Positions 33,455-36,117 of a DNA stretch of 50,192 bases are shown here, piece after piece. The translations under genes and the position numbers were made by a program. The DNA comes from an uncultured Pelagibacteraceae bacterium (GTDB lineage Bacteria > Pseudomonadota > Alphaproteobacteria > Pelagibacterales > Pelagibacteraceae). The stretch is taken from the NCBI GenBank assembly GCA_902571095.1, contig CACGAV010000006.1, forward strand, positions 1-50,192, written 5' to 3'. The notes under the pieces were generated by a model that did not search any database, had not been told where the DNA came from, and worked only from the letters and a program-made list of their open reading frames with translations. Each line of letters starts with the position of its first letter. Position 1 is the stretch's first letter.

Positions 33455-35143
33455 ATGGAATTATCAAAAATAAATAGTTTAGTTGAGTTATATTTTAAAA
33501 AATCCATGGAGGTTGATGGAAAAAAACCTTTTTTAAAATGGTTAAAACCTAATAAACCAACTTATAATTGGAATGAAACTACTGATAGCATATATAAAAT
33601 TTCCAATAAAATAAAAAATTTAATCAAACCTGGAGATAGATGTTTAATACTATCAGAGAATAGACCTTATTGGTTGATGTCAGATATAGCCGTAATGAAT
33701 GCCGGAGGTATATCAGTTCCAATATTTACTACTTACTCATCAAATGATTATGAATATATATTAAAAGATTGTAAACCTGCTCTAATAATAGTCTCAGACG
33801 ACAATCAATTTAAAAAAATAAAAGATTTTATTAATCCCGAAACCAAACATATAATTTCTTTTGAAAAAATCGAAAAAAAAAGTTTATTAATTTCAGATAT
33901 TTTAAATGAAGAAAACTATGAGAGAATAGTAAATAAAAATATAAAACGAAGTATGCCTGCTTGTATAATTTATACATCAGGAACATCAGGTAATCCAAAA
34001 GGGGTTGTACTAAGCCATGGAGGAATTTTGGCAAATTGCGAAGGAGCTTATGATATACTTCATCCGCTTACAAAAAAACGTGATCCTATATTTTTGACCT
34101 GGTTACCTCTTTCTCATTCATATGAACATGCAGTTCAATTCATACAAATTTTATTGGGGGCTAGGGTTTTCTACGCGGAAAGTCTTGAAAAACTTTTATC
34201 CAACATGTCTTTAGCTAAGCCAACAATTATGACAGCTGTTCCAAGATTTTATCAAAATTTATACAATAAAATTTATATTAACTTTAATAAACAGAAAGGT
34301 TTAAAAAAAATTCTGATTAACAAAACAATTGAATTAGGAATTAAAAATTTAAAAAAATTGAAACTAACTTTTACACAGAAAATAGTAAATTTTATATGTA
34401 ATATTCTGGTTAGAAAAAAAATTCAAAAGCAATTTGGTGGTAATTTACAAGCATTTGTATCTGGTGGCGGTGCTCTTGATAAAAATGTAGGTGAATTTCT
34501 AAATGCCATAGGTTTACCTACCTTACAGGGCTATGGACTTACAGAAACATCACCTGTAGTTAGTTGTAATTTGCCAGGAAATATTAAAGTAGAAACTGTA
34601 GGCCCTCCTTTCAAAACCAATCAGGTTAAAATAGCTGATGATGGTGAAATTTTAGTGAAGGGAGAAAATGTGATGCTTGGTTATTGGAATAAGCCAAAAG
34701 AAACAGACGAAATTATAAAAGATGGATGGCTACACACAGGTGATATTGGAGAATTAGATTCAAGTGGCTATTTAAAAATTACAGATAGAAAAAAAGATAT
34801 AATAGTAAATCATGGTGGCGATAATATTTCTCCAAGCAAAATCGAAAATTTAATTTGCAATAATGAAAAAATTAAACAGAGTTTAGTTTATGGAGATAAA
34901 AAAAATTATCTTGTTGCTTTATTAGTTGTAGATGCACAAAATAAAAATGATTCAACTATAAGAAGTATTATTGAAAACTTAAATAAAAATTTAAGTATTA
35001 TTGAAAAAATAAAAAAATTTTATTTAATTGAAGAAGAATTTACAATTGAAAATGGTTTAATGACTCCTACTTTAAAGTTAAAAAGAAAAAAAATAATCGA
35101 AAGATATAAACAGGATTTAGAAAATCTTTATAACAAAAATTAA
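33455..35143 (+). CDS. Long-chain acyl-CoA synthetase (AMP-forming)
   Basis: It activates fatty acids to acyl-CoA through an acyl-adenylate. It contains the AMP-binding motif IIYTSGTSGNPKGVVLSHGG (about residues 169-188), QGYGLTETSPVVSC, and the motif GWLHTGDIGELDSSGYLKITDRKK with the hinge, and the catalytic Lys probably lies in LMTPTLKLKRKK at the C-terminus. Its 562 residues place it with the medium-length bacterial long-chain synthetases. The ATG comes five bases after the encoded ACCA of tRNA-Leu, and no Shine-Dalgarno sequence other than tRNA bases is present. Substrate chain length is inferred from the family. Confidence 0.9.
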   Translation: MELSKINSLVELYFKKSMEVDGKKPFLKWLKPNKPTYNWNETTDSIYKISNKIKNLIKPGDRCLILSENRPYWLMSDIAVMNAGGISVPIFTTYSSNDYEYILKDCKPALIIVSDDNQFKKIKDFINPETKHIISFEKIEKKSLLISDILNEENYERIVNKNIKRSMPACIIYTSGTSGNPKGVVLSHGGILANCEGAYDILHPLTKKRDPIFLTWLPLSHSYEHAVQFIQILLGARVFYAESLEKLLSNMSLAKPTIMTAVPRFYQNLYNKIYINFNKQKGLKKILINKTIELGIKNLKKLKLTFTQKIVNFICNILVRKKIQKQFGGNLQAFVSGGGALDKNVGEFLNAIGLPTLQGYGLTETSPVVSCNLPGNIKVETVGPPFKTNQVKIADDGEILVKGENVMLGYWNKPKETDEIIKDGWLHTGDIGELDSSGYLKITDRKKDIIVNHGGDNISPSKIENLICNNEKIKQSLVYGDKKNYLVALLVVDAQNKNDSTIRSIIENLNKNLSIIEKIKKFYLIEEEFTIENGLMTPTLKLKRKKIIERYKQDLENLYNKN

Positions 35144-35248: not shown

Positions 35249-35337
35249 TTGCACTCTTTTATATTTGACATCTATTGAAAAAAACTTAAAAATGAATTTA
35301 TTAACGAATCACTTTGATTTGTTTAAACAAAAGGGAG
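35249..35337 (+). promoter_or_regulatory. Promoter, palindrome and RBS of the polybasic small gene
   Basis: TTGCAC (35249-35254), 18 bases and TATTGA (35273-35278) form a plausible promoter in an otherwise very A/T-rich 200-base gap. The leader of about 60 bases holds the perfect 14-base palindrome TTTGTTTAAACAAA (35318-35331). This runs into a strong Shine-Dalgarno AAGGGAG (35331-35337), six bases before the ATG. The RBS is clear; the promoter is moderate. Confidence 0.55.
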
Positions 35338-35343
35338 ATAGCA

Positions 35344-35415
35344 ATGGCTAAAAGACGTAAAAAAAAGAAAAAGAAAGCTAAGAAAGCTAAAAAAAGAAGA
35401 AGAAGAAGAAGATAA
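35344..35415 (+). CDS. Tiny polybasic protein (23 residues, 19 of them Lys or Arg)
   Basis: The frame starts at ATG 35344 and ends at TAA 35415. After MAKRRKKKKKK come two AKK repeats and a run of six Arg. The composition is 11 Lys, 8 Arg, 3 Ala and Met. I do not recognise a family. Support for a real gene is the strong AAGGGAG ribosome site at ideal distance, a candidate promoter, and a strong intrinsic terminator starting 10 bases after the stop; nothing else lies between. Such a protein would bind nucleic acid, for example rRNA or DNA, like the tiny extra basic ribosomal proteins (bTHX, AURKAIP1/COX24 type) or histone-like tails. A short non-coding RNA is the alternative reading of the same transcript. 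Confidence 0.68.
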   Translation: MAKRRKKKKKKAKKAKKRRRRRR

Positions 35416-35425
35416 GTAGTTTTCT

Positions 35426-35465
35426 AAAACGCCCTTTCTAAATCTCACGGAAAGGGCGTTTTTTT
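35426..35465 (+). terminator. Strong intrinsic terminator after the polybasic gene
   Basis: AAAACGCCCTTTC (35426-35438) and GAAAGGGCGTTTT (35450-35462) form a perfect 13-bp stem with an 11-base loop, and the Ts continue to 35465. On the minus strand it directly follows the carD stop, with a shorter T-run (four), so it may serve both convergent genes. Confidence 0.93.
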
Positions 35466-36117
35466 ATGGACTATCTAAAAGCTTTTCCTCTCTTCCAAGT
35501 GCTTTGTTCATTTTTTTCTTAGCATCCTCAGAAGATACTTTTAAAACTACTTCAAGTTCACTCTCTAACCTATCATAAGCTTTTTCGAATAATTGTCTCT
35601 CACTGTAGGACTGATCAGCAATGGTATTAGTATTTTTATTTAAATCTCTCACCACTTCAGCCAAATCATAAATTTTTCCTGAATTTATTTTTTGCTCGTA
35701 CTCTTGTGCTCTTCTACTCCACATTGTCCTTTTTATTTTTGGTTTACTTTTCAAAATTGAAATACATTTGCTTATTTGATGTGTTGAAGAAATAGATCTT
35801 AAATTTGACTGCTGATTAATCGGAATTGTCAAGGTCAGCTTATCTTTTTCAATAAACACTTTATAAAACTGTATATCAATATCACCTATCACAGCCTTTT
35901 CTACTGATAAAATTTTTCCTATCCCATGCTTTGGATAAACTACATGATCATTAATGTTGTAAATTTTTTTTTCTGTAGGCTGTTTTTTGATTTTTTTAAT
36001 TTCAATTTTTTCATCGCCTAAATTACCTTTTTGACTCTGAGCTGTCTTTTTATCAAACTTTTTAACTTTAACTTTATTTTTTTTAAGTTTTTTAGTTTTA
36101 CCTTTTTTTCTTGGCAT
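35464..36117 (-). CDS. CarD/CdnL-type RNA polymerase-binding transcription regulator
   Basis: It binds the RNA polymerase beta subunit and stabilises open promoter complexes, often at rRNA promoters. A very basic N-terminal tail (about 1-45; KKGKTKKLKKNKVKVKKFDK) precedes the RNAP-interacting domain (NDHVVYPKHGIGKILSVEKA, about 56-75). A C-terminal helical DNA-binding domain contains SRRAQEYEQKINSGKIYDLA and SYSERQLFEKAYDRLESE. It has 217 residues. It follows ferredoxin after two bases, an order kept in alphaproteobacteria. The Lys-rich tail is longer than in many homologues. Confidence 0.92.
   Translation of the reverse strand: MPRKKGKTKKLKKNKVKVKKFDKKTAQSQKGNLGDEKIEIKKIKKQPTEKKIYNINDHVVYPKHGIGKILSVEKAVIGDIDIQFYKVFIEKDKLTLTIPINQQSNLRSISSTHQISKCISILKSKPKIKRTMWSRRAQEYEQKINSGKIYDLAEVVRDLNKNTNTIADQSYSERQLFEKAYDRLESELEVVLKVSSEDAKKKMNKALGREEKLLDSP

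Follow-up and report, generated by a model that had tools for sequence, protein, structure and literature searches.

The window analysed here is a stretch of 50,192 nucleotides from an uncultured member of the Pelagibacteraceae within SAR11, a group that is among the most abundant marine bacteria. Between a gene for an acyl-CoA synthetase-type enzyme and carD it contains a very short gene, probably without annotation at present, that has its own promoter, leader, Shine-Dalgarno sequence and terminator (Table 1). A preliminary description made from the letters of this DNA had claimed a stand-alone unit here, comprising a strong Shine-Dalgarno sequence, a 23-codon frame of Met, Ala, Lys and Arg only and a perfect 13-bp terminator, and lying beside a carD with a polybasic tail, and each of these elements was found. 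The product, MAKRRKKKKKKAKKAKKRRRRRR, consists of Lys or Arg at 19 of 23 positions (83%), contains three Ala and no Pro, and carries a net charge of about +19. The terminator stem has 13 Watson-Crick pairs and one further G-U pair (-19.6 kcal/mol, z -5.9 by folding), and in the relatives listed it is likewise a GC-rich stem followed by a run of T. The CarD protein of the window has a Lys-rich N-terminal tail of 58 amino acids (38% Lys/Arg). The promoter that had been proposed exists but lies elsewhere: the conserved TTGACA hexamer is its -35 element, not a TTGCAC/TATATT-like stretch at 35249. This promoter matches the consensus at 10 of 12 positions, and its position would place the start of transcription near 35299-35301, so that the leader hairpin, which the preliminary description had overlooked and whose 5' arm is invariant throughout the order, would begin only a few bases into the transcript.

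Table 1. Features of the polybasic peptide gene and its neighbours, in coordinates of the whole window
Feature	Position	Strand	Basis
Acyl-CoA synthetase-type AMP-binding enzyme, upstream neighbour	33455..35143	+	Pfam PF00501
-35 hexamer TTGACA, conserved promoter	35265..35270	+	Consensus scan; fixed spacing to CGAATCA
-10 region TAAAAAT, 16- or 17-base spacer from -35	35287..35293	+	Consensus scan
5' leader hairpin AACGAATCA-CTT-TGATTTGTT	35303..35323	+	Fold; 5' arm includes GANTC site GAATC
Shine-Dalgarno GGGAG, 6 nt 5' of ATG	35333..35337	+	Sequence; kept in 55-sequence leader alignment
23-residue polybasic protein gene MAKRRKKKKKKAKKAKKRRRRRR	35344..35415	+	ORF, orthologs at carD loci, coding selection
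Intrinsic terminator hairpin and U tract, common to convergent carD	35426..35462	+	Fold
carD, convergent neighbour	35464..36117	-	Pfam PF02559 and PF21095

With CarD as the anchor, loci were gathered across the order Pelagibacterales, in the genus and family of the window and in the sister family. All 140 carry the gene: it is intact in 133, truncated by the end of the contig in 6 and frameshifted in 1. This count exceeds the number of independent species because some genomes came from two collections. The intact ORFs encode 20 to 91 residues, more than 50% of them Lys or Arg, and are convergent to carD in both families; the acyl-CoA synthetase gene is upstream in the window's family, and the sister family has a different gene there. 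The single frameshift (L162) is an extra A within a run of eight. Among 247 genomes of the Pelagibacterales, 78 matched a pattern consisting of the Shine-Dalgarno sequence and MAKRRKK, each of them once, and the reversed control of this pattern matched nowhere. The pattern misses genes that begin with MPKKRK or MATKRK and those of the sister family, and wherever a missed genome was checked, the gene was present by synteny. The preliminary description had proposed to look for conservation in SAR11 relatives, and had reckoned with loss of the frame or of the entire unit; instead, the frame persists together with promoter and terminator. In six loci (L031, L046, L048, L049, L063 and L073) the contig ends inside the peptide gene, which suggests that its low-complexity DNA breaks assemblies. 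In another case (L070; G030:C6) carD and the peptide gene appear a second time, in inverted orientation, less than about 3 kb apart, which is probably an assembly artefact of the palindromic kind.

Signs of translation were sought in the window's family, which supplied 95 distinct ORF sequences. None of their 2338 in-frame residues is acidic, compared with 507 of 2243 in frame +1, and reading in frame +2 meets 389 stops. In the purine-only (A/G) codons of the same ORFs, G is at position 1 in 5 of 1816, at position 2 (Lys/Arg) in 593, and at position 3 in 298. The codons of Arg 4 and Arg 5 interchange among AGA, CGT and CGA; of 130 sequences, 81 end in RRRR and the remainder in some other run of four basic residues. 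The spacing of the Shine-Dalgarno sequence and the stop codon are kept in all 133 intact loci. Thus, 35344-35415 is a real protein-coding gene under translational selection, and a chance ORF is ruled out by these frame statistics and the complete synteny. A regulatory small RNA, its frame incidental to a purine-rich tract, would account for a short transcript with two conserved hairpins and a poly-purine centre, but the amino-acid selection is specific to one frame of that tract, in its lack of acidic residues, codon-position preferences and synonymous Arg changes, which refutes a purely RNA function and leaves this explanation scarcely any credibility. A known RNA family was also rejected, Rfam having given no match near the gathering score and only chance, terminator-like matches far below it.

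The peptides of the window's family have a charge of at least +15 (median +19). Chains of 20-30 residues carry roughly +15 to +24 charges and no acidic or aromatic residues, their only aliphatic residue being Ala or, rarely, Val. Length (20-41 residues) varies even inside one genus by the gain and loss of AKK-type units. A composition that is conserved while length varies, with no acidic or aromatic residues, suggests that there is no fold to conserve and that the peptide works by charge.

In the sister family (L165-L172), the gene at the equivalent slot encodes 76-91 residues (e.g. MEELKVIFAKARKKAKKKAAPKKKRKAAKRKPAKKKAAPKKKK...) with 53-61% Lys/Arg and AAPKKKK-type repeats. It has a TTGACA promoter, a CGAATCA...TGATTC leader, a G-rich Shine-Dalgarno sequence, a terminator and a convergent carD as in the window's family. 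Synteny and regulatory anatomy show that the genes of the two families are orthologs, which similarity could not do for low-complexity sequence. On a tree of the CarD core, with the sister family outside and crown support of 94/98, the deep genera of the window's family have peptides of 31 (g5), 34-58 (g12), 29-32 (g7) and 36-38 (g9) residues; those of the crown genera are mostly 20-30 residues long (41 in the longest crown form, L101). The proportion of Arg among basic residues, R/(K+R), is 0.08-0.20 in the sister family, often 0.4 in crown genera and about 0.4 in the window's genus, and stays low in genus g3. Thus, from the sister family to the crown, length and Ala/Pro content drop while charge density and Arg content climb. 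Shrinkage is the likelier direction of change, though unproved, and is read from the sister family alone, searches beyond the order having yielded no homolog. The short-form pattern was run against some 380 genomes of alphaproteobacteria other than the window's family without turning up a relative; the long-form start pattern, which recognises each of the eight sister-family loci fetched, turned up none in 285; and no such gene lies beside carD in 23 other alphaproteobacteria. A leader-like CGAATCA...GATTC at a distant carD (L178) has no Lys-rich frame after it and was put down to chance.

The CGAATCA element of the leader occurs in 90 of the 91 loci that had been gathered independently of it (in the remaining one a contig end cuts the element). 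It lies at a distance of 39-42 bases from TTGAC in 131 of 138 leaders and is identical in all 55 aligned leaders; the seven bases of the 5' arm never vary. In this alignment the core pairs are retained, and 90.9% of cells in the helix are paired, compared with 25-48% when the arms are slid by 1-3 columns. The covariation score of 0.124 was reached in 1 of 500 shuffles and is suggestive only, as just two pairs change on both sides, owing to the invariant 5' arm. We take the dyad to be a hairpin at the 5' terminus of the mRNA whose 5' arm is sequence-specific. Its pattern has a single occurrence in the window (chance 0.02) and a single one in the whole genome to which the window belongs (80% complete), which points to gene-specific control and rules out a global regulon. 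The dyad could, under any reading of the peptide, be a control site in DNA, either a dimer operator or a CcrM GANTC methylation site that would place the gene under a repressor or the cell cycle. The invariance of GAATC in complete leaders, its fixed spacing to the promoter and a full-length CcrM homolog encoded in the genome (L200:1168-2235, covering positions 4-349 of the 350 of the GANTC methyltransferase profile, below the curated cut-off) are in keeping with such a site, which we consider unlikely without dismissing it: the 3' arm drifts mainly from G-C to G-U (20 of 55), preserving the pair and losing GANTC, and in three genera (g5, g7 and g12) the partner arm TTAAGTGA pairs with TCACTTAA over a longer loop, a variation in spacing that a rigid operator would not permit and that disfavours a dimeric operator as the main reading. 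In the leaders of L155 and L151 (genera such as g7 and g12), CUCC is present between the hairpin and the GGAG of the Shine-Dalgarno sequence; it is not seen in crown genera. Pairing of CUCC with GGAG, hiding the Shine-Dalgarno sequence, is a possible translational switch.

Databases and literature were searched for known relatives of the peptide. Neither the short nor the long forms match a family in Pfam or NCBIfam, a weak profile test with low-complexity queries, and a close ortholog had no phmmer hits among PDB sequences, ribosome chains included, a weak test likewise for a short query of this kind. The peptide has no match in PHROG or in viral contigs, and a viral or mobile origin was rejected. 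Nothing was found in the literature on this gene in Pelagibacter, and carD is not mentioned in the paper on Pelagibacter structured RNAs. HU/IHF-family genes are present (1-3 per genome) in 31 of 31 genomes searched, which excludes the peptide as a replacement for missing HU.

We favour, with a probability of about 0.55, a nucleoid role for the peptide as a minimal H1-derived polycation alongside HU/IHF. The unfolded chain would bind to the phosphate backbone of DNA, and probably also of RNA, in the manner of the lysine-rich tails of Hc1/Hc2, AlgP and BpH1, and would help to neutralise and compact the SAR11 nucleoid next to HU/IHF. Its ancestor was most likely a longer protein resembling an H1 tail, of the kind still present in the sister family, from which the window's family would have shed Pro, the greater part of its Ala and the short non-basic beginning MEELKVIFA, becoming 20-40 residues long and gaining Arg, a change from an H1-like to a protamine-like composition. 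The gene's own promoter would give a short monocistronic mRNA starting with the conserved hairpin, which probably sets mRNA stability or provides (auto)regulation. From the sequence we infer nucleic-acid binding and a nucleoid role, and likewise whatever concerns abundance, expression level and the function of the hairpin. The resemblance of the long sister-family orthologs to histone-H1-type tails favours a general nucleic-acid or nucleoid polycation, and a fragment of the KPAA tail of the H1-like protein AlgP binds DNA (PMC9239181). The presence of HU/IHF in every genome checked can be taken in two ways: the peptide would complement these proteins, but the need for a second compaction protein is then not obvious. 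The link to H1-like proteins is one of composition, because known H1-like profiles match neither the short peptides nor the long orthologs, and sequence that is basic and of low complexity readily arises by convergence, which counts against kinship; the 23-residue peptide is accordingly not filed as an H1-like member, its binding being deduced from charge. A charge of this kind would attach just as well to rRNA, mRNA, polyphosphate or membranes, and among targets we would rank the nucleoid as most likely and the ribosome or other RNA next. A bolder version of the nucleoid reading, to be entertained tentatively, is that SAR11 possesses a counterpart of protamines, an H1-tail-like chromosomal protein streamlined to a 20-residue Lys/Arg polymer. 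This polymer would be order-wide in distribution, would be regulated through the 5' hairpin of its gene and would belong to the general make-up of the nucleoid in one of the commonest cell types of the ocean.

The strongest competitor, improbable yet deserving some weight, is that the gene gives the order a small ribosomal protein or biogenesis peptide comparable to bTHX, bS22 or Sra, which would thread into rRNA and neutralise it. Lys/Arg-rich peptides of similar size occur in ribosomes, and the short and extremely basic product, its Met-Ala start, the strong Shine-Dalgarno sequence and the conserved stand-alone unit would all suit this role; the bS22-type slot is also not filled by a known protein, there being no match to COX24_C (Pfam PF08213) in nine Pelagibacterales genomes, that of the window included. 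The same result rejects the peptide itself as a bS22-type protein, and its variable length within one genus argues against a fixed ribosomal pocket. Further points against a ribosomal role are the 76-91 residues and H1-tail-like character of the gene in the same slot of the sister family, the lack of Gly or aromatic anchor residues and the absence of matches in Pfam, NCBIfam and PDB sequences. Distinctly less probable is a charge partner of some polyanion other than the chromosome, such as polyphosphate granules, mRNA/RNP condensates or a polyamine-like counter-ion role. The composition of the peptide confers no specificity for DNA, and AlgP associates with polyphosphate granules (PMC9239181), but nothing in the neighbourhood of the gene is specific to polyphosphate.

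A detached, trans-acting form of the Lys-rich CarD tail, tuning CarD at promoters, has little to recommend it beyond the convergent position next to carD in both families, the Lys-rich N-terminal tails of 57-127 amino acids on the Pelagibacterales CarD proteins read and the H1-like CarD tails of some other alphaproteobacteria. These tails remain on CarD and contain acidic and hydrophobic residues, of which the short peptides have none, and the peptide gene has a promoter of its own and runs on the other strand. Adjacency is also explained by the common terminator, and the conserved convergence may simply reflect its bidirectional use. At four carD loci of other alphaproteobacteria (L179, L182, L184 and L189) the CarD domain is fused to N-terminal H1-like Lys/Ala/Pro/Thr repeats, and most other CarD proteins read outside the Pelagibacterales have 12-40 amino acids N-terminal of the domain. 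CarD of genus g3 (L156-L163) combines a Lys-rich N-terminal tail of about 100-120 amino acids with an acidic C-terminal tail (...EEPISDTDEDLDE) that is absent in the window's genus.

If the nucleoid reading is correct, one of the most numerous kinds of bacteria in the ocean has an essentially universal protein that has been overlooked: gene callers miss so short a frame, trypsin destroys its residues and low-complexity filters remove its sequence. The peptide would be among the smallest chromosomal proteins known and a natural minimal model for charge-driven condensation of nucleic acids, and its orthologs would form a graded series, from 91 to 20 residues, leading from an H1-like to a protamine-like composition inside one bacterial order.

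Of the known systems, the small ribosomal proteins bTHX, bS22 (COX24_C-like) and Sra are comparable in size and basicity, but there is no sequence match, and the SAR11 peptide has no conserved Gly or aromatic anchors and no fixed length. The alphaproteobacterial CarD proteins with an H1-like N-terminal tail likewise tie a Lys-rich tail to carD, but that tail is fused to CarD and contains other residues too, whereas the SAR11 gene is separate and convergent and CarD retains a tail of its own. The bacterial histone-H1-like proteins (Hc1/HctA and Hc2/HctB of Chlamydia, BpH1 of Bordetella and the C-terminal tails of AlgP and PhaF of Pseudomonas) are similarly Lys-rich and unfolded, vary in length by repeat number and probably bind nucleic acids by charge. 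Their Ala/Pro repeat composition is matched by the sister-family orthologs; Lys/Ala(/Pro) repeats without a folded core are found in these and in the genus with 34-58 residues, whereas the peptide of the window is Lys/Arg with little Ala. Known H1-like members are much longer (Hc2, 165-237 amino acids, differing by lysine-rich repeats (PMC2848022); AlgP, more than 350), often with a folded domain or many repeats, whereas the SAR11 peptides of 20-41 residues, the shortest without repeats, have a far higher Lys/Arg fraction and no detectable profile match. By analogy, the SAR11 peptide may work as a polycation of the H1 type or of the protamine type. The protamines of animal sperm are very short, dominated by Arg and Lys, and stand at the end of a series of shortening from H1-like to Arg-rich proteins. 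Most SAR11 members differ from them in keeping a Lys majority, and they have no Cys and occur in cells that retain HU/IHF; the likeness, claimed as analogy and not as common origin, is that of a very short chain dominated by Arg and Lys.
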